Part shown: piece after piece, positions 975 to 23,456 of the stretch | Layout: each line of letters opens with the position of its first letter | Numbering within the stretch: position 1 is the first letter of the stretch | Virus record (IMG/VR): IMGVR_UViG_3300010413_000172 | Span: 1 to 23,637 of that record | Length of the DNA: 23,637 nt | Direction: 5' to 3' (one strand) | Origin: a virus | Notes under the pieces: model-generated | The model's database searches: none | What the model was told of the DNA's origin: nothing | The model's input: only the letters and a program-made list of their open reading frames with translations | Position numbers and translations under genes: made by a program

Positions 975-1832
975 ATGGCTAACTATTCAAATTTCATGGA
1001 TGATATTCTTTCTGAAGTTCCGGGTTGCCCTTATCCTGTTGCACTTGCAAAATTGCAAAGGACAGTTAGGGATTTCTGTAAGAAAACTGATTGTTATCAA
1101 GCAGACCTTGATGATGTAAGTGTTGTGTCTGGAACACAAGAATATACAATATCTGATCCTGATGCTTATAATGAAATTATACGTTTAATATCAGTCAAGG
1201 ATGAAAACGATAACTATTATAATAGTTTCACTTATGACCCACCGACCTTAACTTTAAATTATGAACCTACTTCTGATTTTACTTTATCGTTAAGAGCATC
1301 TCTTCGTCCAGTTAAAGGAGCTACATCATATACAACTAGTACATCGGCAGATTATGAAAATGATTTTACAGATAGCGATTTGACTTCTGGCGTATTGACT
1401 GTAACTCATTCTTTAAATGATGAATATGTTGTTGTTGTTGTGTGGGATAACAATAAACAAATAGTAATACCAGATAATGTAACAGCAACAGATGCAAATA
1501 CTGTATCTATTGATTTATCTGGATATGGAACACTTTCAAGTAGTCCTAACGATTGGCATTACTTAATATTCTCAGGAGCTACATCAGTATCAACAGTAAC
1601 AACTTCTGACTCGACATCAGTTGATGATATAATTTTCTATAATTATTATGATGGTATTGTTGCTGGAACATTAGCACGTTTATTCAGGATGCCTAAACTT
1701 CCTTGGACAGATTTAGAGATGGCTAAGATATATAACAGTGAATATAATGGCTATGTAAACAAAGCCAGAATAGATAATAATAAACAGTTTACTGCAAGAG
1801 ACTTAAGCGTAAGTTTGAAGGATTGGGTATAA
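975..1832 (+). CDS. Connector / head-completion-like protein with inserted beta domain
   Basis: This 285-residue protein looks like a second phage connector subunit. Its N-terminus ('PGCPYPVALAKLQRTVRDFC', residues 16-35) and C-terminus ('YYDGIVAGTLARLF' followed by 'LPWTDLEMAKIYNSEYNGY') match the helical ends of phage head-tail joining proteins that begin with a 'PGCP..' segment. Between them, about residues 130-204, sits a beta-rich insert: 'SGVLTVTHSL', then 'VVVVVWDNNKQIVIPDNVTA', then 'TDANTVSIDLS'. It is flanked by Ser/Thr-rich linkers. That block resembles a small domain common in phage fibres and decoration proteins. GAGGAAG lies just upstream of the start, inside the preceding gene's end. 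A role in closing the head or joining the tail is inferred from context. Confidence 0.6.
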   Translation: MANYSNFMDDILSEVPGCPYPVALAKLQRTVRDFCKKTDCYQADLDDVSVVSGTQEYTISDPDAYNEIIRLISVKDENDNYYNSFTYDPPTLTLNYEPTSDFTLSLRASLRPVKGATSYTTSTSADYENDFTDSDLTSGVLTVTHSLNDEYVVVVVWDNNKQIVIPDNVTATDANTVSIDLSGYGTLSSSPNDWHYLIFSGATSVSTVTTSDSTSVDDIIFYNYYDGIVAGTLARLFRMPKLPWTDLEMAKIYNSEYNGYVNKARIDNNKQFTARDLSVSLKDWV

Positions 1833-2509: not shown

Positions 2510-3205
2510 ATGGGAACAGTTACTATACTTGCAACAGTTACACAAGACCCATTATCTGAAGGTTATACAGGGGCAGTCTTTGGTTATGGTGCAGATTGGG
2601 ATGCATTACAAGGAACAAAGACTTCTGCAACTCTAAAAAACAATTCTAGCACTATACAGATAGAAAGTCAATACAATTCTGGGCTTGGTCGATATGAACT
2701 GTCAAGAGGATTTTTCACATTTACTGATTTAAGTGATTTTAAAGATGCATTAGATGCTGGCAATAATATATTAACAGCAAGACTTTCATTTTATGTTACA
2801 TTAAAAGATGTTCATACAATCAACAATAGGGGTGGGATAGCATTATATCAAGGAACATATAGTAATGCTTATTTTACTGGTTCTGATTTTAGAGAATTTT
2901 CAACATATTTTGGTAAAGTAGACTTAATTTCAACTTCATCTAATGGATGGATTAATATCTATTTCAATCAAGATGGTCTTGATTATTTAGTAACACAAGC
3001 TAACGCATCAGCTTCAGCAAAACTTTGCATAAGAACTTATGAAGATTATTATGACTTAGCTCCTTTATCTAGTCTATATCCTATTACTCAAGTAACCTAT
3101 ATAAGAGGGAATACAGGAACATATGTAAATTATAAACCACGTTTAGTAATAACATATGATACTACAGCAATAGCATTTAAACCTAAAGTTATGGTATTTA
3201 ACTAA
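2510..3205 (+). CDS. Beta-sandwich virion protein, DNRLRE / carbohydrate-binding-like
   Basis: This 231-residue protein has the outline of a DNRLRE-type or carbohydrate-binding beta-sandwich. It shows 'GRYELSRGFFTF' (60-71), a strand 'ILTARLSFYVT' (87-97), a central 'NGWINIYFNQDGLDYL', then 'AKLCIRTYEDYYD', and ends with 'YKPRLVITYD' (208-217). That last segment resembles the '(R/K)P-L-V-I-T-Y' close of this domain. In bacteria such domains sit on secreted or wall-anchored proteins and can bind sugars. In a phage tail cluster the likely job is virion decoration or weak attachment to host surface sugars. The start follows the previous stop by one base with only a weak ribosome-site match (AGGGTG), and the stop overlaps the next ATG (TAATG), so translation is probably coupled. 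Function is inference. Confidence 0.5.
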   Translation: MGTVTILATVTQDPLSEGYTGAVFGYGADWDALQGTKTSATLKNNSSTIQIESQYNSGLGRYELSRGFFTFTDLSDFKDALDAGNNILTARLSFYVTLKDVHTINNRGGIALYQGTYSNAYFTGSDFREFSTYFGKVDLISTSSNGWINIYFNQDGLDYLVTQANASASAKLCIRTYEDYYDLAPLSSLYPITQVTYIRGNTGTYVNYKPRLVITYDTTAIAFKPKVMVFN

Positions 3206-5619
3206 TGGCAAATATACGATTAAATACATTTGATGGTAGATCGCCACAAGTAGACCCAAAAAGATTATCAGAATCAGATTCCCAAACTGCGAAGAATTGT
3301 GATTTCCGTTATGGTAACTTAAGACCAATCGATGGATTAACTAAGGGAGACATGATGGGTGGTCTTCGTATAGTTGATATAGGTGGAACTATTAGTTGGT
3401 ATAATAGAATAGATGATGATACAGTATCATGTACATCTACTGCTCATGGTTTAACTACTGGTAATACTATAACAATTACAGAGAGTATAAACTATAATGG
3501 AAACTTTACTGTAACAGTTATTGATACTAATACATTTTCAATAACAGCAACAGATTTATGGAAAACTAATGACAAAGCTGGTGAATGGGTAAAGGACTAT
3601 ATTGTTATTCAGGATTCGACAGGCAACCTAACATCTACTGCTGTTGATGGTAATGGAGCATCTCCGGGTGATATAGATGCAGACATAACAGTAGAAACTG
3701 ATGCAGCACATGGATTATCTGTAGGTGATAATGTTTGGTTTGATAGTACAATGGGTGGGGTTGGTTATTATCCTACTGTATATACTATAACAGCTAAAAC
3801 TGATACTACATTTACATTTACTGCAACATATGTAGCAAATGCAGACCCATCAGATTCAGATTGGTTTGCTGGTGATTATGTTGTTACAGGTGAAGTAGGT
3901 TCTATCTATCTTATGAATGATAGTTGGTTAAATCTAGCTGGTGATACAGATTTTGCTGAATCATTTATAGCTGATAATAATTATAGAATTTACTATACAT
4001 CTGAATCAGGCCCAAGGCAAACTGATTATGATTTGGCTATACAAGGCCAATCATATCAATGGCCTTTTGAATATAATAGATTAGGGATAGAGAGTCCTCC
4101 TGATTCTATCAAAGCTACTGCCTCTGACGACACAACTGTTTTGGCTGACGATACAACTTCTTTAACAGTTGCACAATCAGTAGCATATGTTTATACATAT
4201 GTAACAGGATGGGATGAAGAGGGGCCAGAGTCGCCAGCTTCAGATGTTATTGATATTGAGGTAAATCAGAAAGTAACTCTTACTGGTTTCTCATTACCAT
4301 TAGTATATGCTAATAATATTGATTATATTCGTTTATATAAAACAGTTACAGGGACAGATGGCACTACAGAATATCTTCAGATAAACAGAAAAGGAATAAT
4401 AACAGGAACTACAGATGGTACTGATAAGGTTGTTATAGCTTCAGCAGGTCACGGACTTGTTGACACAACAGAAGCACCGACTGTTTTAATATATGGCACA
4501 ACAAGTTATAATGGTGAATGGACAGTTGAAGTAATAAATTCAGATTCATTCTATATACTTGACGATCAAGGAGTTTATATTGATTGGACATCTGGAACTG
4601 AAGAAGGTGAATGGGTACAAACATCTGACATAACATTAACTGATGCTGTAACATATGGAGTAATAGATAGAAATGACCCTGAAGATGCTGGTATACAACT
4701 CTCTACTGAGGATTTCGATCCACCGCCAACTGATTTGCAAGATATTCGTTTATTCTCTAATAATATTTATGCTGGTTTTAATGGAGATAATGAGCTTTGC
4801 TTATCAGAGCCGGGTTATCCGTATGCTTGGCCTATAAAATATAGAATACCTGTTGCATATTCTATTATAGCGGTTAGTGGATATTTGTCCACATTGCTTG
4901 TTCTTACTGATGAACAACCATTCTTGGTAGTAGGGACAGACCCATCAACAATGACTCTATATCCAATGCCATACAAGAAACCATGTATTAATAATACAGG
5001 TGTTGTCTCAACTCCAAATGGTGTGCTTTATCCTACATATGATGGACTATATAGAGTAACTTCATCTAGTGGTGATCTTGTTACTCGCAGAGTTATTGAT
5101 AGAATAACATGGGAAAACTATCCGCTAACTGATATATATGCTGCATATTTTGATGGTAAATATATAGCTTTCTTTAAGAATACTAATACTGGATTCTATC
5201 TTGATTTTGAAGCACAAAATTTAAGATTAGTTGATATTGAGTTTCCTGTTGATTTTAGATTTAAAAACTTTCATAATGATGGGCAGGACTTGTATCTATT
5301 AAGTACAGATAATTATTTATATCAATGGGGTGATGATCCAGATACACCTTTGACATATACATGGAAAAGTAAAATATTCCAATTTCTTTCTGCTACTAAT
5401 TTTTCTATTGCTAGGATTATAAATGATGGAACTAATGATTTAACTTTTAATCTTTATGTAGATGGTAGTTCAACTGCGTTTCATTATGAGAATGTAAGCG
5501 GGGATGATCTATTTAGATTGCCTGCAGGAACCAGAGCTAAAGAATTTGAGATTGAGGTTACTGGAACATCTCATGTTGACTTAATAGAAATTGCAAATAC
5601 TATTGAGGAACTTGAATAA
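3205..5619 (+). CDS. Tail nozzle / tail tubular-like structural protein with three AHGL repeats
   Basis: This 804-residue structural protein opens with 'NTFDGRSPQVDPKRLSESD', 'AKNCDFRYGNLRP', a start I recognise from podovirus tail nozzle or tail-tubular-B-like proteins. The body looks like a beta-propeller ('LQDIRLFSNNIYAGFNGDNE', 'LVLTDEQPFLVVGTDPSTM', 'NGVLYPTYDGLYRVT'). An Ig/Fn3-like segment lies near residues 300-395 ('YVYTYVTGWDEEGPESPAS'). Three related inserts start near residues 72, 161 and 407. Each has (A/G)HGL, a turn, and a 'YNG.(F/W).V..I....F.I' strand pair, resembling the FCCH-like beta domain found in phage tail proteins. Such proteins form the tail tube end through which DNA leaves. 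It starts on a TAATG overlap without a strong ribosome site. Tail role likely; T7 gp12 equivalence is inference. Confidence 0.65.
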   Translation: MANIRLNTFDGRSPQVDPKRLSESDSQTAKNCDFRYGNLRPIDGLTKGDMMGGLRIVDIGGTISWYNRIDDDTVSCTSTAHGLTTGNTITITESINYNGNFTVTVIDTNTFSITATDLWKTNDKAGEWVKDYIVIQDSTGNLTSTAVDGNGASPGDIDADITVETDAAHGLSVGDNVWFDSTMGGVGYYPTVYTITAKTDTTFTFTATYVANADPSDSDWFAGDYVVTGEVGSIYLMNDSWLNLAGDTDFAESFIADNNYRIYYTSESGPRQTDYDLAIQGQSYQWPFEYNRLGIESPPDSIKATASDDTTVLADDTTSLTVAQSVAYVYTYVTGWDEEGPESPASDVIDIEVNQKVTLTGFSLPLVYANNIDYIRLYKTVTGTDGTTEYLQINRKGIITGTTDGTDKVVIASAGHGLVDTTEAPTVLIYGTTSYNGEWTVEVINSDSFYILDDQGVYIDWTSGTEEGEWVQTSDITLTDAVTYGVIDRNDPEDAGIQLSTEDFDPPPTDLQDIRLFSNNIYAGFNGDNELCLSEPGYPYAWPIKYRIPVAYSIIAVSGYLSTLLVLTDEQPFLVVGTDPSTMTLYPMPYKKPCINNTGVVSTPNGVLYPTYDGLYRVTSSSGDLVTRRVIDRITWENYPLTDIYAAYFDGKYIAFFKNTNTGFYLDFEAQNLRLVDIEFPVDFRFKNFHNDGQDLYLLSTDNYLYQWGDDPDTPLTYTWKSKIFQFLSATNFSIARIINDGTNDLTFNLYVDGSSTAFHYENVSGDDLFRLPAGTRAKEFEIEVTGTSHVDLIEIANTIEELE

Positions 5620-8099: not shown

Positions 8100-8378
8100 A
8101 TGCCGACATTAATGACAATAGAAGGAACAGTTGAGCAAGGACTGTTGATTAGAGATGCACTTTGTGCTAACCATAATTATTTAGAAATGATTGCAGACCC
8201 AAATAATATTGGAGAGGAAATACCAAATCCTGAATCTAAAACAGATTTTGCTAAACGTATGCTTCTTGCTTTTTTAAAAAGGCAAGTAAAAATATATAGA
8301 GAGAACGAAGTAAAGGCTACACTTGCAGCAGCAGTAGAACAAGCAGAAGCAGAAGCAGATGGAATAGGTGTAGCATGA
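8100..8378 (+). CDS. Small helical phage protein downstream of the tail fibre (unknown role)
   Basis: This 92-residue protein is predicted to be largely helical. A beta-like start ('MPTLMTIEGTVEQG') leads into 'DFAKRMLLAFLKRQVKIYRE', and the C-terminus is a repetitive Ala/Glu helix ('AAAVEQAEAEADG'). Small proteins with a 'DFAK...F.K..V..(Y/H)E' helix are often found next to phage tail fibres; their role is unknown to me, and a fibre chaperone or fibre-joint subunit would be reasonable guesses. A ribosome site (AAAGGGAA, about 8086-8093) supports the start, and its stop overlaps the next start as ATGA, implying coupled translation with the peptidase-like gene. It is charged, soluble and lacks a signal peptide. 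Confidence 0.6.
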   Translation: MPTLMTIEGTVEQGLLIRDALCANHNYLEMIADPNNIGEEIPNPESKTDFAKRMLLAFLKRQVKIYRENEVKATLAAAVEQAEAEADGIGVA

Positions 8379-8737
8379 AATATTATAAACTAATATATAA
8401 AGATAAATTTTCAAATGGTTTAACTTGTGCTGGTTATGCAAAAGGATACAAGATTTATATACTTAATAAATATAAAAATGATGTTGGTATCCTTGAGCAT
8501 GAGAAAACTCATGTTAGGCAATGGTTTTATTTTTTAACATTTCCATTTAGTTTTCTTTATAGCAATTTTAAATGGTTTAAATTATGGGCTGAAGTTCAAG
8601 CATATAAAGTACAGCTTAAAAATAATCCTCCTGAATGGCCTGATTATACAGAGCTATATGCAAAGTTTATAGTGAAGAATTATAAATTAGGGAATTATAA
8701 AACACAAGAAGAAGTAGTTAAAATGTTGAGGGCATAA
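8375..8737 (+). CDS. Mini zinc metallopeptidase-like protein (HEKTH)
   Basis: This 120-residue protein carries a compact HExxH motif, HEKTH at residues 42-46 ('ILEHEKTHVRQW'). About 27 residues later comes 'WAEVQAYK', where Glu73 could be the third zinc ligand, an arrangement typical of gluzincin-type metallopeptidases. Between them is a hydrophobic aromatic stretch ('FYFLTFPFSFLYSNF') that could be membrane-associated or buried. It overlaps its neighbours at both ends (ATGA upstream, TAATG downstream), so it is co-translated with the small helical protein and the acyltransferase-like gene. A role in fibre or virion maturation, or in attacking a host protein, is possible. It could also be an inactive fold. 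The motif is seen directly; the activity is inferred. Confidence 0.6.
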   Translation: MKYYKLIYKDKFSNGLTCAGYAKGYKIYILNKYKNDVGILEHEKTHVRQWFYFLTFPFSFLYSNFKWFKLWAEVQAYKVQLKNNPPEWPDYTELYAKFIVKNYKLGNYKTQEEVVKMLRA

Positions 8738-10283: not shown

Positions 10284-10598
10284 ATGGCATTTAATCCGAA
10301 TCAAGCATTGCTGGGTAAGATAGGTGGAGGAACTGATAACTATCAGCAATCTTCTGCTCAGATGATGCAAAATGCACAAGCAGCAATGGGTTCACAACAT
10401 CAGGTAAGAGAAGGTAATGAACCTACTGTTGGTAGTGCATTACAAGGTGCAATGGGTGGAGCATTGACAGCAGCAGGTGCAGGAGCAACATTAGGTGCTG
10501 TAGGTTTAGGAGAAACTGCAGCAGCTACATTTCTTACAGGTGGTCTTGGATTAGGGATTGCTGCTGGTGTTGGTTTACTTTCAAGTATATTTGGTTAA
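10284..10598 (+). CDS. Small Gly/Ala-rich membrane-active internal protein
   Basis: This 104-residue protein has a polar, Gln/Met-rich first half ('YQQSSAQMMQNAQAAMGSQ') and a long Gly/Ala hydrophobic second half from about residue 50 ('GALQGAMGGALTAAGAGATL', then 'GLGLGIAAGVGLLSSIFG'). The second half could span or insert into a membrane. Such small glycine-rich proteins between other internal virion genes are reminiscent of ejection proteins that enter the host envelope, but sequence similarity is too low to name it. The start is set by AAGGAG at 10271-10276. It could also be a holin-like protein, though its position inside the internal-protein block makes an ejection role more likely. Confidence 0.55.
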   Translation: MAFNPNQALLGKIGGGTDNYQQSSAQMMQNAQAAMGSQHQVREGNEPTVGSALQGAMGGALTAAGAGATLGAVGLGETAAATFLTGGLGLGIAAGVGLLSSIFG

Positions 10599-10610
10599 TA
10601 GGAGCATATA

Positions 10611-13094
10611 ATGGCTACCAAACAAACAGGACAAGATTGGATGGCACTTGGGCAGAATATGCTCAACATGGCAGGAAGCCTCCAACAAATGAAAGCAAAT
10701 AAATTACAGCAAGAAAGGGCTGCATTACAACTACAAGATGAAAAGCAGAATAAAGCTGCTGAAGACCTTGGAATGGAGATGGGCAGGAAACATATTTATG
10801 CTCTACCAGATAGTGCTGCTGACCAGACACCTGAAGTTAATGCTGTTATGAAACAACAGAACGCAGCATTAAGTCCTGCCAAACAGGTGAAAGCTGAATT
10901 GCTAGCTGAAGAATATATCAATAAAGATATTGATAATCAAGCTGGAATTATGGCAGAAAGATGGAACGCTCCTTTTCAAACAATGCTTCGTGCTTATGAT
11001 AATAATTCTGATGCTGCATTAACAGCACTTATGAAAGAGATGAAAGGACTTGATAATGTAAATGACAAGTACACATCTAAACTTCGTGTAGCATTTAGGA
11101 ATAAGATGATTGGTCAGGTAGCTCAGTCTGCTGAAACACAGGCTAAGATTTCTAGTGCTGCTATGACACGATCACAGGAAGTACAAAACAACTTAACAGT
11201 TAATGGTCAGCGTTTAGTTGGTTCGTTGATGGAGCACGTTAAGCAGGGGAACGAGCAGCAAGCTGCTGCTACATATGGAGAGATATGGAATCAGTTTGGT
11301 TCTGCTATGTATGGGCCAGCATTTGAGATGAAATATAATGGAGAAACAATTCAGATAAAAGAACGCAGTAGTGGAAAGGTAGTTAAAGAGTTTGATCCTC
11401 TTGATCCACAAGCTGCTTCTAATATTGGAAATTTAGTTTCTTCTCAAATGGGAAACCCTCAGCTTGGGCAAACTTTAGTTAAGCGTTATCAGGACGAGAT
11501 TACTTCACGTCTTCAAGAATCATTAAATGATATGCCGGGTACACTTCAAACAGATATGGAGTTAACACGTAAAGATGGTGTTAAAGTTAAGATGCCAGCA
11601 GGAACAAATCTGTATATGTCAAAGAATTATCTAACTAATTCTGCTGGTGAAGTATTCCCTTTATATGAAAATGAAGCTGCTGTAGGTAAAACATTTTGGG
11701 ATGTTGAAACATTACCAGAATCTACACGCAAAAATATTGATGCTCAAGTAACTGCTATTGGTAAAGAAATGGGTTGGACTCCTGAGCAGATGGAAGAGTA
11801 CAGGCAGAACGCATATGCAGCAGAGAAGGGAAGATTAAATAAAATAACAAATAATGGAGTTCCTATGCAATATCTGCAGCAGCAAGTAGATAGATTGCAA
11901 GATGCTGCATATCCTGTTATCGGTGGCCCACTTGATGCTGAATCATATATGAAGAAGCTACAGGAAATAGGTTCAGGTTATGGTGATGCAGTATATAATA
12001 TTCCATTATCTGATGGTACTGAGTTTCGTGGTACTATCCCTGCATGGATGGATGCAGAGATGGAAGTAAGAAAGCTACAGTCAGAAGCAGTTAAAAATGA
12101 ATCACGTGGAGCTAATGGAACTCCGACACCTTCACCACAACCGGGAGCAGTAGAAGCACCTCCTGTTAATATGCAACAGAGAATTGAGGCTGGCCCCAAT
12201 TATGGGATTGGTGATTTAGCTAAGATGGGACAGAGTGCATTAGGTACTGGTATTGGAATTGCAACTGATGTTATGGCTGGAAGAAAAGATATTACTGGCA
12301 AACCTATTGCTGGTGCAGATCAGGCAGAGCCAAGACTAATTGAGAAAGCTACTGATAAGATGCACGAATGGGCACAAGCAGAGAAGCAATGGCTTAGTGA
12401 TACATATGGAAGAATGACAGGTTCAGCATATGATAAGTGGAATAAAGAAAGATATGGTGGCGGAGAAACATCTGCAATACCAATGGCTAAGTCACACCCT
12501 GCTTTATCTGCTGGAATTGATATGATTAAAAGTCACAAGACAAAAAATGTTGTTAGTAAACAAAAGCCAGTTGAAAATGAATCAATGAATAATTTGTTCA
12601 ATGATTACTTACAATATCATCATGGGAAAAAGAATATACCAAATAATTTAAAGAAAAAATATACAGCTAAAGTAAAAAAGTATCTTGAGAACTATCCAGC
12701 TAATGGTGATGAAATGTATGGTGCTTTAAATGAAGCAGCACACGGCCCATTATCTGAAGAATATGAAAAAATTGCTGGAAATAAAAATGTTTTAGGTGAT
12801 ATGTGGATTCATGGTTTATTCGAGTCTGATGGATATTCAGATTTTTATGGCCCAAAAGATAAGAAAGGTAGGATGGCAGTTGGCCCTTGGCAAGTAAGAC
12901 CTAACTATGCAAAGGATTGGGTTAGAAGTTCAAAAATGTATGGAAAGAAGGCAGAAGAATTTACTGGCAAAACAAAAGCAGAACTTAAGAAAATGTCAAA
13001 GAAGGAATGGGAAGAGTTTTTATTAGACCCAAATGTTAACGCATTGTTTGCACTTGGATTGTATATGCAACACATGAAAGCTGCTAATAAATAA
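10611..13094 (+). CDS. Internal virion protein with C-terminal lytic transglycosylase domain
   Basis: This 827-residue protein is mostly helical and Gln/Ala-rich at the N-terminus (coiled-coil-like 'QQMKANKLQQERAALQLQDE', about residues 24-43). It passes through a Pro-rich linker near residues 503-519 ('GTPTPSPQPGAVEAPPV') and ends in a lytic transglycosylase-like domain, roughly residues 650-827. That domain has the catalytic-type 'LFESDGY' (Glu738), then 'GPWQ' at 758-761 in place of the usual GLMQ, and a final 'LLDPNVNALFALGLYMQHM', the family's conserved closing helix. Such enzymes cut the glycan strands of peptidoglycan so DNA can pass the wall. In T7 this domain is at the N-terminus of gp16; here it ends a mid-sized protein. 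AGGAG (10600-10604) supports the start. Activity is inferred from the motif. Confidence 0.75.
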   Translation: MATKQTGQDWMALGQNMLNMAGSLQQMKANKLQQERAALQLQDEKQNKAAEDLGMEMGRKHIYALPDSAADQTPEVNAVMKQQNAALSPAKQVKAELLAEEYINKDIDNQAGIMAERWNAPFQTMLRAYDNNSDAALTALMKEMKGLDNVNDKYTSKLRVAFRNKMIGQVAQSAETQAKISSAAMTRSQEVQNNLTVNGQRLVGSLMEHVKQGNEQQAAATYGEIWNQFGSAMYGPAFEMKYNGETIQIKERSSGKVVKEFDPLDPQAASNIGNLVSSQMGNPQLGQTLVKRYQDEITSRLQESLNDMPGTLQTDMELTRKDGVKVKMPAGTNLYMSKNYLTNSAGEVFPLYENEAAVGKTFWDVETLPESTRKNIDAQVTAIGKEMGWTPEQMEEYRQNAYAAEKGRLNKITNNGVPMQYLQQQVDRLQDAAYPVIGGPLDAESYMKKLQEIGSGYGDAVYNIPLSDGTEFRGTIPAWMDAEMEVRKLQSEAVKNESRGANGTPTPSPQPGAVEAPPVNMQQRIEAGPNYGIGDLAKMGQSALGTGIGIATDVMAGRKDITGKPIAGADQAEPRLIEKATDKMHEWAQAEKQWLSDTYGRMTGSAYDKWNKERYGGGETSAIPMAKSHPALSAGIDMIKSHKTKNVVSKQKPVENESMNNLFNDYLQYHHGKKNIPNNLKKKYTAKVKKYLENYPANGDEMYGALNEAAHGPLSEEYEKIAGNKNVLGDMWIHGLFESDGYSDFYGPKDKKGRMAVGPWQVRPNYAKDWVRSSKMYGKKAEEFTGKTKAELKKMSKKEWEEFLLDPNVNALFALGLYMQHMKAANK

Positions 13095-13102
13095 GGAGAA
13101 TT

Positions 13103-16100
13103 ATGTCATTCTTAAATGATTCGTCGGAACAGTACAAGAAGTTAATAGGTATTAGTACGACCACACCAGAACAAGCACCAGAAGAACAGGGGCTTGGTGA
13201 AGAGTTCATGACAGGACTCAAACGTGGAACTGAACAGACAATAGGTACTTTAAGCGGTGCTGTCGGTCTAGCTGGTGGTCTAATAGAAAAGGTTGCACCT
13301 TCAACAGAAGTTGGAGAGAAGATGCAGAAGTGGGGTTATGAGTCTTACTTGAAACATATGCAGAATGTTCAAGAAAAGTATTCTCCAACTGTAGCAGGAT
13401 TCTCTCAGATTAAATCTGCTAAGGATGCAGTACATTGGTTCTCAGGTGTAATAGGTGAACTTGCTCCTACTGCTGCAGAAGTAATGTTGTCTGCTGCTCT
13501 TGGTGGTGGTATAGCTGGTATTGCTGCACGTAAGGGTGGAAAGAAAGCTATTGAACGTATATTCGAGAAACAAATAGCAAAAGAAATTGAGAGTGAAGTT
13601 GGCAAACGTGCTATTGCTAAGTTCGGAAGAGAAGCTGCTGAAGCACAGATTGCCAAAGAGATAATCAAGAAAGCTGGTGCAACTGCTGGTGCATGGGCTG
13701 GTTCAACTGCTATGGAAGCTGGTGGTATGTATTCTGAATCAGCACAGGATGTTGGGCTTGAGAAAGCTAGTCCATTTACAGCTTTAGCATTAGGTATGAT
13801 TTCTGGTGCTTCAGAGGTAATATCTCCTTCTGGTCAGGTTATGACCAAGATGGGTATTGGTTCTATAGTCCGTGACTTCAAGAAACAGTTTATTAATCTT
13901 GGTGGCGAAGCTGTACTTACGAGAGTTGGATTAAAGTTTGGTAAAGATGTACTTGAAGAAGCAACACAGGAAGGTTTTCAAGAGTTCCTTAATGTTGTTA
14001 ATGATGAACTTAATAATCCTGATGTTGACCATGCCACTAAACAGAACTTAATTCGTATCCTTGATGCTTCTGCTGCTGGTGCTGCTGGTGGCGTATTGTT
14101 CGCTGGGGCTAAATCCCTTGGCCGTTACAATGCAATGCAGCAAAAGAAAGCATCTGATAAGTTCCAAGAGCAAATGACTGAGGAAGAAGGTGAACCTGAA
14201 GCACCAGTTCAAACTGATATATTCGGAACTCCCTATGGTCAAGTTGTTTCAACTAAACAAAGAAATCCTATTAACATAGTTGTTCCTACTCAAACAGAAC
14301 AAGCACCAGAAACAACTGAGGGTTGGAACGCTGGATTCGATATTGAGAAAGGGCCAGCACAAGGTTATCCATTTCAAATTATTCCTGATACAGCTTATGA
14401 AGCAGGTCAGCTTGAATCTGGTCAGGAAATAACTTTCGTTGATAACGGAAAAGAGAAGACAGGTACAATCACTAAGCTATTCCCTAACGGTACTGCTAGT
14501 GTTAATGTAGGCAGTAAAACAGTTAAGGTTCCTTTAGCTAACCAAGCACCAATAGCACATATAGTTGATGTAGAAACTAAACAACAGCAACCTTTCGTTG
14601 ATACTGAAGGGATTGGTGACCAGTTTCGTATGCCTGACGGCACATTAAGAAATGATATATCTCTTGATTTAGAGACGAATAGGTTCGTTGATAAAGAAGG
14701 TACTGTCGTTTATCCAGTAATTAAATCAACAACAGGAGTTACAAGTGATAAGGAAAAGAGGGGAGTATTACGTACTCCTGAGCCACAAGGGGAAGGTACT
14801 GTACAAGAACAAGCAGCGGAGCAAGGTAGTGAAGAGGGAGCAACAGGTGAACTACTTCAAACACCAGAAAGGACATTAACATCTAAGATCACAGGTCAGC
14901 CAATTCCTGTAGCTACAGAAGCACAGGAGGCTGCTCCTGCTCCAACTGAGTTGCCTGTAACCCAAGAGGATGCAGAAGCATTAGCGACGATTACAGAGCC
15001 ATCTGAGGCTCCTAAGAAGAAGGGGAAGAAGAAAACTGAGGCACAACCTCAATACGAAGCAACTGGTATAGGGCCAGAAGAATCTCCGGGCATTGAAGAG
15101 AAGGCTAGGAAGAAAGGGAAGAAGAAAGAGGTAGAACTAAAAGTTGCAGGGCCAGAAGAAGTTGTTGCTGAAACACCTAAGAAAAAGAAAGGCGTTAAAC
15201 TTGGGCCGAAGACTGAAGAGATTGTGGCTGAACAGGCAGAAGAAGTTCCACCTGAGGTAACTGCTCCTGAGAAAAAAACAGGAAAGAAGTTACCTAAAGC
15301 TAATGTATTAGATAAAGGAGACAACTATACTGTTGAGGAAATAACAAAAACAAATGATAAAGGCCAAAAGGTTTTTAGTAGAGTTGCTTTTTATATTGAC
15401 GAAAATGGTAATCAGCATATAGCTGGAACTATTGAACGTCCTATTTATAAAACAGAAAAGGTAAATGCAAAGCATAAAGAGAATGATACATTACAATTAA
15501 TTCAAGATGCTGAAGATTTACATAGAGAATTTTCTGAGAAAGCTGACAAGGAAACTCAGGATTGGGCAGATAAAAATATAAAAGATATGCTTTATAAAGA
15601 GTTTGGAAAAGAACAAACTGATACATTGACAACTAGTTGGTTTGATGTCAAGGAAGTAAAGCAAACTTTTAAAGATTATAATGATGCTAAGAAAGGTGGG
15701 GACAAAGAAGAGATTGCTGTTGCTGCTTATAATCTTGGTGATATAAAGAAAGCTATATATGAAGATGCAAGAGAACAACTAACAAACATAGAAGCACAGA
15801 AAAAGAAAGCACTCGAAAAGAAACGAGCTAAAGAAGCTAAAGCTGAAGCTAAAGTAGAGGCACGTGAGACTGAGAGACAGGAAGGAAAAAAAGAACCTGT
15901 AACTCATGGGGCTACATTACAAGCTAAGATAGATGCTGGTTCTGTTCTTATGGATATTGATGGTAGAGCATTTGCTACAAAGAAAGATGCTACTGCCAGA
16001 GTATCTGCCGTTAAGAGAGTTGTTGCTGAACTTGGATTTGATCCTAAGAAAGTATCTATCATACAAACAGCAAGGCTTGCCGAGAGCGAAGACTATCGTG

Positions 16101-19100
16101 GTGGAGATATAACAGGAACATATGTTATTAGATATACTGGTAAAGTTGGAGAAGGTATTGAATCTCCACTTACACATCCATATATCAAAGATGTTGCTTC
16201 TGTTGCTACTGAAGTAAAGGAACGGAAAGAGGCTGTTGTAACCCATAACGGTGTAAAATATCGTCAGCCTTACCAGAGGATTGATAAAGGTTTGGTCAGT
16301 ACATCTGCTACACTTCAGGAAGAAGTTTACTTTGATAACACTGAAGACAATACTAGGTGGAAACTTGTACCACAGGAAAAGAAAGTGGGCAAGAATATGG
16401 TTGAGACAGGTAAAATTTATGTAGTTAAAGTTGACCCTGACCAAGCATATGAAACTCATGCTGGTAATGTAGCTGATTGGCCTACTGGTGATTATAAATT
16501 ATTTGGTTCAGTTGTTACAAAAGAAGGAAAAATAAATAATGAAGTATTGAATTGGGTTACTAATCATTACTATAAAAATAGCCCTTCATCTTTAATAGGT
16601 AAAACATTTCCTTTCACAAAGAAAACTATATTCGAGAAGTTTGTAAAGAACTCTGGCGACAAACGACTTGAGGTTGTTCCTGTTGCAAAGGATAAAGGGA
16701 ACAAAGTTATTTGGGGTGTTCTTCGTAAAGGTGATCCTCTTGCTGCAGTTTATAAAACAAGAGAAGAAGCTATCAATGAAGGTATTCCAAAAATAGACCC
16801 TGAGAATACAGGCAATTTAGTTTATGTTGATGAAATAAAATCAGGATTAAATAAAGGAAAGTTTAAAGTATTTGTTAAGCAACTACGTGAAGGTGTATCT
16901 GTTCTTCGTTTTCTTGAAGATAAGATTCAGATAATGGAGAAGATTACTCCTGAAGTTGCTGTACGTAAAACTTTGACAAGTGCTGAACTTGAGAACTACT
17001 TTGCTGAAGCAGTACCAGAAGCAGAGGATAGAGCTAAGTTCACTGCTGAACTTGAAAGTAGAATTACTAAGGCTGCAGAAAAAGCAAGACTTGGTGATGA
17101 ACCTTATGTCCAAAGAATTGTTTGGGATGTCGTATCTAAATATGTCAAGCCTACTAGGAAAGGTACGCTAAATAGAACTCAGATAAACAAGTTTAAGAAA
17201 CAAATCTATACTGATATATTAGAGAAATACAATACAACATATAGAAGTAAGAAGCTAGGAACAAAAGAACTTGATGTATTAAGTAAACGTGTTCGTGACT
17301 TTACTGTTGAATTACTTGGTATCAAAGATACAGCTTTTATGAATAAGATAGAGAAGGACTTTGCTAACCTACAGAGGATTGGCGTAAGAACTAATATCTA
17401 TCGAACAAATGAGACTATCAAGAATGATATTGATTGGAACAAGGAAGCTAAATTAAAACTGTCACGTGACGACAAGTTTAATTTAATATCTGATTTAACA
17501 GGTGTTCAATTCCCTAAAGCGAAGGCTGCTATTTCCGATAAGGTAATGGTTGGTGATATTGAGAAGTTACAGCATAAGATACTATCTGCTCCTGATGCTA
17601 TGGAGGCACAGAACATACTTGATGATATGTATGGGGAGCAGGATAACTTCTACCAAGAGGCCATGTATCAGCATGGCCTCACATTAATCAATAATACTTG
17701 GAAGATAAACAAGCACGCTCCTTATATTGGTATAACAATTAAGACAGGGAAAACTATTGGTAAGATTGTTGGAACAGAGAATAATGATTTCATTGTTAAG
17801 AGTGTAAAGACAGGAAATGAATTTAGAATTTCTCATTCTACTTTTTTTAGGCAGGGCAATAATCCTATATATTATAAGCAAGGGAAGAAGTGGGTTAAAG
17901 TAACTGAAGGTATTCAGAATCCAGACTTCATGATGTCTGCTGATGGATGGGAACGTGTATATAATCTAAGTGATGAAGAGTTTGCTCTTGAATCAAAGAA
18001 ACTTTTACTAAAGGCTAAATATAGAAAAGAGTTTAGACAAAGCATACCTAAATTAATTAAAGAATTGACACAAAGCTGGGTACATAAGCCTGAGATATTT
18101 GTTGTTGATTCACCTGAAATGTATGCTGATCCTAACTTCATTAAAGAACATGGTCGCTTTGTTCCGGGAGTTGTTGATTCAACTGCTTTTATAGCAGGGA
18201 ACATGAAGGTTTATGTTAATGCTTGGAAGGTTTTTAATAAGTCTCACTTAACACATTCCGTACTTCATGAAGTTGTTGGTCATTGGGGATTGCGTTCAGT
18301 CTTTGGAGATTCATTAAATGATGTTATTGTCAGCATGATTAAAGATATAGGTGTTACTGAGATGGCTCAGTATCTACAGGAGACAGGATATGATCTAAAG
18401 AGAAAAGCAGATGGAAGATGGGACAAGACTGATTTCCAGATAGCTGAGGAATATGCATCACAGATAGCTGGTGCTGGACTTAAACCTTCGTTTATTCGTA
18501 GAATAATAACAGCTATTAAAATGCATTTCAAACGAATGGGATGGAATGTCAGGATTACAGACAATGATGTTATAGCTCTTGTTGCCACATCACATAAGTT
18601 CGTAACAGAAGGAAAAGGAACTGCTAAAACTTATACTGAGTTGTCATTAAAAGATAAGAAATTAATATCTCAGATGGCTAGAGAAACAGGGCAGATAAGT
18701 AAAGCATTTGTTCCTTCTACACGTGCTGATGATATATCATATCTTGCTGAAGCTATTCCAGAATTGAGAGAAGAAGCACCAAAGAGATTTGCAGATCATG
18801 GTAGCTTTATTAACAAAATGGTTAACAAGATGACTCCTCTTGGTAATCTAGTTAATAAAGGTAAGTATCTAGCAGTTCGTTATAGAACTCTTGGCCAGCT
18901 TGGTCAGGTTGAAACAAGGACTAAGCAAATATATAATTTGTTCAAAAAGCAAACTGCTGATACACCAGAGATATATAAATACCTAACAACTAAGAACGCT
19001 GACCCTACTGCTATCAAAGATAAAGTATTACGTAATGCAGCAGTAAGAGTTAAGGATGAACTGTTCCAGAATGGTAAAGACTTGGTTGATCGTGGGCTTA

Positions 19101-21103
19101 TGGCTCAAGAGGCTCTTGATAAATGGGGCGGAGCATATCTGCCTAGAGTTTATCTGAAGCATTTACTTGACAGTAAGCAACGTAATTCTTTTGGTTCTGG
19201 TAAAACATTATCTGGAATCTATGCTCTACCTAGAACAGCAGATGAAGCATATAGAAAAGTTATAGGCGAGATAAAAGAACCAGCTTATCTTTCATCGAGA
19301 GCATATAGTATTGAAGCTAGGGATGTTATACTATTTGATTGGTTAAATGAAATAAGCAAGGATAAACAATGGGTACTTCCTCAATCATTTGTTGACTATA
19401 AAGGGAAGAAGGTAACAGCTACTTATCTCAAGTCTGTCGCTGAACATCTACGTAAAACTGCTGATGCTGCAAAGCTAGATGTAAATAATGAGATGCGACT
19501 TGAAGCACAGAGAATGGAGACTATAGCTAATCATGCACCAGAAGTCCCAGAACACTTGACAAAGGATTACAGGAAACTCCCTTCTCATTCTAAATATGGT
19601 CGTCTTGCTGGTATGTGGGTTGATAAACATATCTATAATGATATAGTTGAGACATCAACCATAACAACTGGCGAAGAGTCATATGCTGAGAAAGTGCTTG
19701 GACATAATAAGATGTTAACTAGATTGACAAAGAAATGGAAATGGGCAAAGGTAGCTGCTAATATTCCTGCTCACTTCAGAAACTTTGCAACTAACCAGAT
19801 ATTACTTTATCTTTCTGGCATGTCAATCGGTGATGTCAATAAGTATTATTGGAAAGCATTTAATGATATTAAGAATGATGGTAAATATTGGCAGATAGCT
19901 AAAAGGTATGGAGTTAAGGAAGCTACATTTACTAATACAGAAATGTGGAGAGTTGATCGTGCATTAAAGTCAACAATAAGACGACATCGTGAGAACGCTG
20001 GATTATTAATGACTGTATGGGATAATGTTGCTAACATGATGGAATATTCTGTAGAGAAATCTGGCGACCTTTACCAATGGTCTGAGGCTTTAGGAAAGAC
20101 AGCAAAGCTGATGTATGAGATTGAACAGAACAATGCATCAGAAGAACACGCTGCTCTTGAAGCACACAAATGGTTATTTGATTATTCACTTGTTACTCCG
20201 TCAATGAAGTATCTGCGTAATGCTCCAATAGGTGTACCATTTTTAACATTTAATATGAAGGTACTCCCTAGACTAGTTGAAGTTGCACGCATGAACGCAT
20301 TTAGATATGTTCCTTTCATGTTAATGCCATTAGTTATGGCCGAGGCTGTTAAGTCTGCATTTGATTTAGATGATACAGACTATGAGAAACTCATGAAGAT
20401 CGTACCTAAGTGGATGCAAGAGAAATCAAATATCTATTTACTACCAATGCGTGATTCTAAGAATAGGTTCCAAGCTGTTAATGTTGACTACTTCTTGCCT
20501 TGGAGTCCTTGGTGGGAAGCTGCTAGAGATATGAAAGAGGGTGTTATAAAAGGTGATGTTACAAAGCTAGGCGACATGATGAAAAGTTTTGGTCTGTTCG
20601 GTGGGCCAGTTCCTCAAGCTATATCAGCATATCAAACTGGTATTGATCCATTTACAGGTAATGAAATATTTTCTGACCAAGATTCATGGGAAGATAAATA
20701 TTGGAAAACGACTACATGGCTATGGGGAATGTCAGCCCCTACTTGGATAACAAGTAATGGTTTTGCTGGGAAGGTAATGGATTCTCTTAATACAATGGAA
20801 CGTGATACGAACAATACTCAACCTACATTAGCACAAGCAGCAATGCGTATGTTTGGCGTGAATACATATCCTGTTGATGCTATTAAGTCAAGATTACAAA
20901 ATATAAAATCTCTCAACACAGAACTAAAAGCAGCTAAAGCAAAGATGACACAAGAGATGAAGAAATATAAATTTGGAACTAAGGCTTGGAAAAATGCAAG
21001 GGATGAATATAGGGCTATCGTATTACAAAAGCAAGATGAACTACGCAAATACAAACAAGATACATCACTTAATAAGAATCTAATAGCTAAATTGACAAGA
21101 TAA
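13103..21103 (+). CDS. Giant multidomain (polyvalent-type) internal virion protein with zinc metallopeptidase motif
   Basis: A single 2666-residue open frame, about one third of the window. Residues 40-340 have Gly/Ala-rich hydrophobic stretches ('LSAALGGGIAGIAARKGGKK' near 131) that could enter membranes. Residues 545-735 are a low-complexity E/K/P/A linker with KKKGKKK-type blocks, followed near 894-930 by a charged helix. A zinc-site motif HEVVGH lies at 1722-1727 with 'WGLR' after it and a candidate Glu ligand in 'IAEEYASQIAG' (1782/1783), as in the metallopeptidase of phage and plasmid polyvalent proteins. Residues about 1850-2440 resemble the C-terminal region of such proteins ('YLPRVYLKHLL', 'AANIPAHFRNFATNQ', 'IGVPFLTFNMKVLPRLVEVA'), with a possible TM segment at 2402-2420. 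Order suggests a T7 gp16-like internal protein injected with DNA. Only the protease motif is assignable; I see no polymerase motif. Confidence 0.7.
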   Translation: MSFLNDSSEQYKKLIGISTTTPEQAPEEQGLGEEFMTGLKRGTEQTIGTLSGAVGLAGGLIEKVAPSTEVGEKMQKWGYESYLKHMQNVQEKYSPTVAGFSQIKSAKDAVHWFSGVIGELAPTAAEVMLSAALGGGIAGIAARKGGKKAIERIFEKQIAKEIESEVGKRAIAKFGREAAEAQIAKEIIKKAGATAGAWAGSTAMEAGGMYSESAQDVGLEKASPFTALALGMISGASEVISPSGQVMTKMGIGSIVRDFKKQFINLGGEAVLTRVGLKFGKDVLEEATQEGFQEFLNVVNDELNNPDVDHATKQNLIRILDASAAGAAGGVLFAGAKSLGRYNAMQQKKASDKFQEQMTEEEGEPEAPVQTDIFGTPYGQVVSTKQRNPINIVVPTQTEQAPETTEGWNAGFDIEKGPAQGYPFQIIPDTAYEAGQLESGQEITFVDNGKEKTGTITKLFPNGTASVNVGSKTVKVPLANQAPIAHIVDVETKQQQPFVDTEGIGDQFRMPDGTLRNDISLDLETNRFVDKEGTVVYPVIKSTTGVTSDKEKRGVLRTPEPQGEGTVQEQAAEQGSEEGATGELLQTPERTLTSKITGQPIPVATEAQEAAPAPTELPVTQEDAEALATITEPSEAPKKKGKKKTEAQPQYEATGIGPEESPGIEEKARKKGKKKEVELKVAGPEEVVAETPKKKKGVKLGPKTEEIVAEQAEEVPPEVTAPEKKTGKKLPKANVLDKGDNYTVEEITKTNDKGQKVFSRVAFYIDENGNQHIAGTIERPIYKTEKVNAKHKENDTLQLIQDAEDLHREFSEKADKETQDWADKNIKDMLYKEFGKEQTDTLTTSWFDVKEVKQTFKDYNDAKKGGDKEEIAVAAYNLGDIKKAIYEDAREQLTNIEAQKKKALEKKRAKEAKAEAKVEARETERQEGKKEPVTHGATLQAKIDAGSVLMDIDGRAFATKKDATARVSAVKRVVAELGFDPKKVSIIQTARLAESEDYRGGDITGTYVIRYTGKVGEGIESPLTHPYIKDVASVATEVKERKEAVVTHNGVKYRQPYQRIDKGLVSTSATLQEEVYFDNTEDNTRWKLVPQEKKVGKNMVETGKIYVVKVDPDQAYETHAGNVADWPTGDYKLFGSVVTKEGKINNEVLNWVTNHYYKNSPSSLIGKTFPFTKKTIFEKFVKNSGDKRLEVVPVAKDKGNKVIWGVLRKGDPLAAVYKTREEAINEGIPKIDPENTGNLVYVDEIKSGLNKGKFKVFVKQLREGVSVLRFLEDKIQIMEKITPEVAVRKTLTSAELENYFAEAVPEAEDRAKFTAELESRITKAAEKARLGDEPYVQRIVWDVVSKYVKPTRKGTLNRTQINKFKKQIYTDILEKYNTTYRSKKLGTKELDVLSKRVRDFTVELLGIKDTAFMNKIEKDFANLQRIGVRTNIYRTNETIKNDIDWNKEAKLKLSRDDKFNLISDLTGVQFPKAKAAISDKVMVGDIEKLQHKILSAPDAMEAQNILDDMYGEQDNFYQEAMYQHGLTLINNTWKINKHAPYIGITIKTGKTIGKIVGTENNDFIVKSVKTGNEFRISHSTFFRQGNNPIYYKQGKKWVKVTEGIQNPDFMMSADGWERVYNLSDEEFALESKKLLLKAKYRKEFRQSIPKLIKELTQSWVHKPEIFVVDSPEMYADPNFIKEHGRFVPGVVDSTAFIAGNMKVYVNAWKVFNKSHLTHSVLHEVVGHWGLRSVFGDSLNDVIVSMIKDIGVTEMAQYLQETGYDLKRKADGRWDKTDFQIAEEYASQIAGAGLKPSFIRRIITAIKMHFKRMGWNVRITDNDVIALVATSHKFVTEGKGTAKTYTELSLKDKKLISQMARETGQISKAFVPSTRADDISYLAEAIPELREEAPKRFADHGSFINKMVNKMTPLGNLVNKGKYLAVRYRTLGQLGQVETRTKQIYNLFKKQTADTPEIYKYLTTKNADPTAIKDKVLRNAAVRVKDELFQNGKDLVDRGLMAQEALDKWGGAYLPRVYLKHLLDSKQRNSFGSGKTLSGIYALPRTADEAYRKVIGEIKEPAYLSSRAYSIEARDVILFDWLNEISKDKQWVLPQSFVDYKGKKVTATYLKSVAEHLRKTADAAKLDVNNEMRLEAQRMETIANHAPEVPEHLTKDYRKLPSHSKYGRLAGMWVDKHIYNDIVETSTITTGEESYAEKVLGHNKMLTRLTKKWKWAKVAANIPAHFRNFATNQILLYLSGMSIGDVNKYYWKAFNDIKNDGKYWQIAKRYGVKEATFTNTEMWRVDRALKSTIRRHRENAGLLMTVWDNVANMMEYSVEKSGDLYQWSEALGKTAKLMYEIEQNNASEEHAALEAHKWLFDYSLVTPSMKYLRNAPIGVPFLTFNMKVLPRLVEVARMNAFRYVPFMLMPLVMAEAVKSAFDLDDTDYEKLMKIVPKWMQEKSNIYLLPMRDSKNRFQAVNVDYFLPWSPWWEAARDMKEGVIKGDVTKLGDMMKSFGLFGGPVPQAISAYQTGIDPFTGNEIFSDQDSWEDKYWKTTTWLWGMSAPTWITSNGFAGKVMDSLNTMERDTNNTQPTLAQAAMRMFGVNTYPVDAIKSRLQNIKSLNTELKAAKAKMTQEMKKYKFGTKAWKNARDEYRAIVLQKQDELRKYKQDTSLNKNLIAKLTR

Positions 21104-23114: not shown

Positions 23115-23456
23115 ATGGCAGACGCAACATTTACTAGGCAAGACCATGAGGTTGAGTGTATGGATAGGAGACAGAACATGAGGGAATACGTGTGCTTAAA
23201 GTTAAAGCCTATCATCAAGCAGCTTAACGTATATGGTTGGATACTAGGACTATTTATTGCAGGGCTAGTTGGGGGCGGTATTTGGAAGAACAATGTTGAT
23301 GCTGCTCAGAACGAAAAGCTAAGGAGTATGAAAGAGATTGCTTCAATACAACATGATGAAATTATAAAGAGATTAAATAAACTTGAAGAGTTGAATGAAA
23401 AGAAATTTAATGCTATATTGAAAGCATTAAATAATGAAAGAAAAGATATTCACTGA
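23115..23456 (+). CDS. One-TM coiled-coil protein, holin- or spanin-like candidate
   Basis: This 113-residue protein has a polar, cysteine-containing N-terminus (residues 1-37, including 'EYVCLKLKPIIKQ'), one hydrophobic segment at about 39-57 ('VYGWILGLFIAGLVGGGIW') and a C-terminal charged coiled coil ('RLNKLEELNEKKFNAILKAL'). The basic residues before the membrane segment suggest N-in, C-out, placing the coil in the periplasm. This fits a small accessory lysis protein, holin-like or spanin-like, or a membrane anchor. It is the last plus-strand gene, after the exported proteins. AAGGA (23101-23105) or CAGGA (23108-23112) could be its ribosome site. The stop lies inside the first 3'-end hairpin. 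Lysis function is a guess from topology and position. Confidence 0.5.
   Translation: MADATFTRQDHEVECMDRRQNMREYVCLKLKPIIKQLNVYGWILGLFIAGLVGGGIWKNNVDAAQNEKLRSMKEIASIQHDEIIKRLNKLEELNEKKFNAILKALNNERKDIH

Follow-up and report, generated by a model that had tools for sequence, protein, structure and literature searches.

The virion RNA polymerase of phage N4 (gp50) begins with a domain that contains predicted membrane helices, followed by a low-complexity linker of 100 residues, the RNA polymerase itself, a domain carrying an HExxH motif (C1) and a helical domain (C2) of approximately 110 kDa (PMC12633501), for which a 2025 preprint found no significant structural relatives (PMC12633501). The pores of N4 are attributed to gp51 and gp52, not to gp50 (PMC12633501). 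According to unpublished work cited in a review (PMC4496689, ref. 78), genome injection depends on the N-terminal domain of the polymerase and encapsidation on its C-terminal domain. The polymerase is packaged unprocessed (PMC5512222). HEXXXH zincins are already on record from phage polyvalent proteins (Iyer et al. 2017; PMC5512222), and the motif as such is therefore no novelty. A comparable zinc site occurs in dipeptidyl peptidase DPP III (family M49), which carries HEXXGH with natural HEXXH variants and uses the second glutamate of an EE pair as its third ligand (PMC5805324).

The window analyzed here is a complete IMG/VR virus record of 23,637 bases, probably a fragment of a larger genome; it begins within a gene that is presumed, from its position only, to encode the major capsid protein. 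It contains one giant gene at 13103-21103, whose 2,666 codons are open without interruption, as the sequence-only reading had claimed. A PHROG search of the window showed that the matching neighbor genes encode mainly virion proteins, with head and packaging matches upstream and the giant gene placed after the tail genes. This order resembles that of N4 (capsid ... gp52, gp51, gp50) in that a protein of 104 residues and one of 827 residues precede the giant protein, with no detectable sequence similarity between these two neighbors and N4 gp52 or gp51. The features discussed below are as follows.

10284-10598, + strand: 104-residue protein, positional counterpart of N4 gp52 (small ejection protein), by gene order only
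10611-13094, + strand: 827-residue protein, positional counterpart of N4 gp51, by gene order only
13103-21103, + strand: whole gene of the 2,666-residue giant protein (open frame, ATG to stop)
13160-14110, + strand: N-terminal Gly/Ala-rich region, residues 20-336 (conserved in L063, L065 and L082/L083)
14735-15307, + strand: Glu/Lys/Pro-rich low-complexity linker, residues 545-735 (by composition)
15308-18037, + strand: middle region, presumed cargo, residues 736-1645 (no recognized relatives found in searches)
18050-18613, + strand: zincin domain, residues 1650-1837 (75-protein profile, order of elements in the AF2 model, match to the N4 C1 profile)
18266-18283, + strand: HEVVGH, residues 1722-1727, with two predicted His ligands and the catalytic Glu1723 (by invariance)
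18449-18451, + strand: Glu1783, predicted third zinc ligand (invariant in 47 of 47)
18803-21079, + strand: C-terminal helical module, residues 1901-2659, presumed to serve encapsidation/ejection (77 relatives, AF2 model)
19550-20338, + strand: core of the module, residues approximately 2150-2412, aligning with C2 of the N4 polymerase (hhalign)

Several neighbors have features of their own. The C-terminal part of the 827-residue protein (10611-13094, + strand) contains ESDGYSDFYGPKDKKGRMAVGPWQVRPN, which by eye is a lytic transglycosylase-like motif, and Pfam and NCBIfam gave no match to a lytic transglycosylase in this protein. A 120-residue protein (8375-8737, + strand) with its own HExxH (HEKTH) matches phrog_13761, a family of unknown function (E 5.4e-14), with no match in Pfam. 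The 804-residue product of 3205-5619 (+ strand) has a match to the ubiquitin-activating-enzyme FCCH domain that falls just under the cut-off (29.4 versus 29.5 bits), which is odd for a presumed tail protein. In the product of 975-1832 (+ strand), the match to phrog_437 (virion structural) falls on the N-terminal half, and residues 116-183 hit different families, one of them a head decoration protein; this split suggests an added surface domain. A weak match to an Rz-like spanin at 23115-23456 (+ strand; phrog_1152, E 0.012) would point to a Gram-negative host, and a scan of genome contigs returned two MAG loci, too few for host inference.

At the N-terminus, residues 20-336 are conserved in three relatives, all of which also bear the C-terminal module. 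The sequence-only reading had described hydrophobic, membrane-like Gly/Ala segments here; the region is indeed rich in Gly and Ala, and its hydrophobicity is moderate rather than membrane-like (the best 19-residue Kyte-Doolittle mean is 1.55, and none reaches 1.6). The linker at 545-735, previously called Lys-rich, is of low complexity as stated, and its composition is more exactly Glu/Lys/Pro-rich (Glu 17.8%, Lys 14.1%, Ala 11.0%, Pro 10.5% and no Phe). The long unmatched stretch claimed from residue 735 onward was confirmed over residues 735-1640: our searches of Pfam, PHROGs, NCBIfam, PDB sequences, the phage collection and IMG/VR gave no match to it, sensitive slice searches with residues 735-1600 gave noise only, and a single-sequence scan of viral contigs with the middle region gave no match. 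Pfam, PHROG and PDB-sequence searches of residues 735-1640 likewise found no T7-like RNA polymerase domain, and we therefore do not class the protein as a virion RNA polymerase.

Translation places HEVVGH at residues 1722-1727, as claimed. The motif is HExxxH, not the classical HExxH, and with this spacing (H-E-x-x-x-H) the second histidine is residue 1727. A pattern scan of IMG/VR returned 53 loci, nearly all of them phage proteins of approximately 1,700-4,700 residues, some open-ended, and the domain recurs in divergent phages with the motif retained at approximately 24% identity. Across 47 clusters (at less than 80% identity to each other), H1722, E1723, H1727 and E1783 are the sole invariant columns (47 of 47), and a second alignment yielded the identical four and no others. 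Residue 1782 varies (E in 30 and D in 7 of the 47 clusters), so that of the two glutamates proposed earlier as third ligand, Glu1783 is the candidate and Glu1782 drops out. Because the pattern scan selects for the motif, the unbiased checks are the third ligand and relatives that were not selected by motif. In the 16 zincins reached solely via the C-terminal module, all four residues are kept while positions 1724-1726 vary (the variants include HEPITH, HETVVH and, in L001, a shortened HELGH), indicating conservation far beyond chance. On these residues the zincin looks catalytically competent. Three other giants (L011, L022 and L033) contain a second zincin-like motif, HEWWHSLDNY or HEWWHAMDNY, approximately 240 residues before HEVVGH.

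Aligning zincin-only together with module-only sequences produced a misalignment, and the two domains were modeled separately. The AF2 model of the zincin (residues 1610-1880, from 48 sequences; mean pLDDT 72.9) runs in the order helix, three strands, long motif-bearing helix and later helix with Glu1783. Polyvalent metallopeptidase (MPTase) zincins are defined by a three-stranded sheet with an N-terminal helix and two C-terminal helices, and the order of elements in the model agrees with this; from conservation and the model, HEXXXH lies in the first and the glutamate in the second C-terminal helix, so that, as far as helix placement goes, motif and Glu1783 sit in the two helices expected of a zincin. 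A Foldseek search of the PDB with this model returned nothing significant. A second structural aligner ranked zincin-type domains first (lethal factor, Certhrax, MATCAP, plasmid ArdC, IrrE and PPEP-3), with Z scores falling from 7.4 to about 5, in a range (Z below 8) that is common by chance; we weighed these matches by the consistency of the list together with the sequence evidence, and a shared fold is silent on substrate.

The newly described part of the protein is its C-terminal module of approximately 760 residues, which is confidently predicted to be helical (AF2 pLDDT 84.5, pTM 0.85). Residues 1901-2659, approximately, have a relative in MW202615. Single-sequence scans of viral contigs with the zincin and C-terminus had matched nothing, so profiles were needed: a three-sequence module profile found 118 IMG/VR loci, of which 80 were kept, and iteration led to 87 proteins, so that, besides the giant protein, 77 non-redundant phage proteins carry the module. 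The median distance from its end to the C-terminus is nine residues (within 60 residues in 92%), in complete proteins ranging from 797 to 4,096 residues. Fourteen module proteins are shorter than 1,000 residues and consist of little beyond the module itself, whereas the 34 of at least 1,500 residues divide into 18 with and 16 without an HExxxH zincin. The domains upstream of the module are exchangeable; in the relatives they include inorganic pyrophosphatase, RadC, ART-PolyVal, PBECR5, a Strawberry-notch-type helicase, Zeta toxin and ddrB-ParB.

Against BFVD, the module model gave 48 matches at E ≤0.001 (best 2.6e-22, TM up to 0.68), and these are the ends of annotated polyvalent proteins, among them one of phi19:3, under names that include ART-PolyVal, Zeta, LPD38, RelA/SpoT and helicase. 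The resemblance of the C-terminal region to polyvalent proteins, previously proposed, thus holds in the module family, in the profile of Achromobacter phage CF418P1 (below) and in BFVD. Foldseek found nothing significant for the module in the PDB, and with the second aligner the matches were confined to the last helical hairpin and came from coiled coils that are unrelated, a result that we rejected. PDB entry 9k3a ('Tail protein', 1,114 residues) gave a weak profile match (E 0.001).

We compared the two C-terminal domains with those of the N4 polymerase by profile. The PHROG scan contained a weak hint to virion RNA polymerase, and a shallow N4-like C2 profile matched the module at E 0.0018. 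A deep profile built from 21 Schitoviridae polymerase C-terminal regions aligned with the module over 260 collinear columns (hhalign probability 95.7, E 9.2e-9), compared with E 0.34-0.96 for one reversed and 20 column-shuffled decoys; with module sequences from zincin-less loci only, E was 4.1e-8. The zincin aligned with N4 C1 over 74 columns (probability 90, E 1.7e-6, decoys 0.48 or worse), with HEVVGH opposite N4 HELVH and one residue inserted, and the motif contributes part of this score. At the level of profiles, then, these alignments show the module to be homologous to C2 and the zincin to C1. Foldseek with the module model did not return the N4 C-terminal domain, whose chains may lie outside the library.

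Evidence from other phages bears on where such proteins reside. Cellulophaga phage phi18:3 gp123, whose annotation as a virion protein cites experimental MS/MS proteomics, has the module (E 1.7e-51), and in five relatives the module matches PHROG 22602, a family of virion structural proteins (best E 7.6e-13). The giant protein is of the phage polyvalent kind, as the sequence-only reading had it, and is probably a virion component that enters the host together with the DNA. Our preferred explanation, which we regard as likely, is that it is a giant ejection protein built like the N4 polymerase, with a different cargo in place of the polymerase. By homology with N4, the C-terminal helical module (1901-2659) would get the protein packed into the virion; by analogy, again with N4 only, the N-terminal region (20-336), on its flexible linker, may take part in ejection. 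Region 736-1645 would be the cargo, active in the cell once infection has begun. Points against this explanation are that the kinship with N4 is seen by profile comparison and not by Foldseek, that the N-terminal region is only moderately hydrophobic and that the neighbors show no similarity to N4 gp51 or gp52. H1722, H1727 and E1783 are predicted to bind zinc and E1723 to activate water, and the zincin (1650-1837) would be an active protease that either frees parts of the giant protein or cuts a host protein.

What the zincin does can be read in three ways. It may serve mainly in self-processing, with no host target, and cut the giant protein where its domains meet, either ahead of packaging or once delivered, a reading to which we give slightly less than an even chance. 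Iyer et al. argue for this role in polyvalent zincins, and P1 DdrB undergoes processing ahead of its packaging (PMC5512222). In 6 of 18 complete relatives, as well as in the giant protein and N4, no more than about 200 residues separate the zincin from the module; this proximity in a third of cases favors processing. However, 16 of the 34 module proteins of at least 1,500 residues lack this zincin, so processing by it is not obligatory, and the unprocessed packaging of the N4 polymerase also speaks against it. That the zincin is optional favors cargo instead, and we consider it plausible, if the less probable course, that it is an injected effector cutting a host protein such as a component of a defense system or of the transcription machinery. 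Its distance from the module varies from 80 to 2,345 residues, as expected of exchangeable cargo, and it adjoins effector-like domains (for example, the Zeta toxin in L018), although its adjacency to the module in the giant protein fits processing equally well. A structural or degenerate zinc site, in a domain that is no protease but part of the C-terminal packaging unit, as N4 C1 may be, is unlikely. N4 C1 has HExxH yet no reported cleavage, and encapsidation is said to require the N4 region that includes it (PMC5512222), but Glu1723, which is catalytic and not a ligand, is as invariant as the ligands (47 of 47), and a purely structural site needs no such residue.

The sequence-only reading had also likened the protein to the largest internal protein of T7-like phages and proposed that it is a DNA conduit. 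An internal protein of the T7 gp16 type, forming the DNA channel through the inner membrane by itself, would fit the placement of the gene after the tail genes and the conservation of the Gly/Ala-rich N-terminus in a few relatives. Yet the giant protein has no strong membrane segment, Pfam and NCBIfam found no lytic transglycosylase domain in it (the T7 gp16 hallmark that we looked for), and its C-terminal half relates to the N4 polymerase, which makes this alternative improbable. Both C-terminal domains being related to C1 and C2, the N4 polymerase is a better model than T7 gp16, and the T7 analogy was not upheld. The conduit proposal found no direct support, its membrane candidates being weak and the pores of N4 being assigned to other proteins than gp50.

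The ejection protein modeled on N4 has a wider counterpart, toward which we lean with somewhat less assurance: the orphan C-terminal half of the N4 polymerase would be one case of a widespread helical delivery module (for encapsidation/ejection), often preceded by a zincin, whose cargoes have been exchanged between polymerase, ADP-ribosyltransferase, RNases, helicases and unrecognized regions. If C2 belongs to a module of dozens of phage proteins, its role becomes testable in other systems. If the reading is true, the module can serve to recognize packaged and injected phage proteins, and the unrecognized region of approximately 900 residues is a candidate early-infection effector.

Set against known systems, the giant protein resembles polyvalent proteins in being a giant multidomain phage protein encoded among virion genes and in sharing its zincin and module with bearers of LPD, ART-PolyVal, PBECR5, ddrB-ParB and Zeta domains, and differs in that it has no Pfam polyvalent-domain match itself. 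With the metallopeptidases of Iyer et al. (PMC5512222) it has in common the motif and a third Glu in the following helix. The module aligns with the LPD38-bearing (PF18857) C-terminus of Achromobacter phage CF418P1 (probability 94, E 1.1e-7, 296 columns), a phage that also has HEVVGH; the Pfam LPD38 model (PF18857) matches neither the giant protein nor seven close module relatives, and a direct comparison of the CF418P1-type C-terminus with N4 C2 gave no match (E 0.076). In phi18:3 gp123, the module follows a different upstream part, with no zincin of this family. DPP III shares with the phage zincins the switch between HEXXGH and HEXXH and the EE-pair third ligand, with no Pfam match to M49 and no detectable sequence relation in the giant protein; we take this as a likeness in the working of the zinc site, not as kinship. 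The similarity to N4 gp50 is visible only with profiles and extends over the whole layout (N-terminal region, low-complexity linker, large middle, zincin and large helical C-terminus). The two proteins differ in their motifs (HExxxH here, HExxH in N4) and in the middle, where an unrecognized region stands here and no RNA polymerase domain was found; the order of zincin and then helical module is common to both, with C1 and C2 related at the profile level. That the orphan C2 of N4 appears, on these profile alignments, to be one member of a delivery module common among phages is the most interesting result of the analysis, and one that lies outside the original claim.
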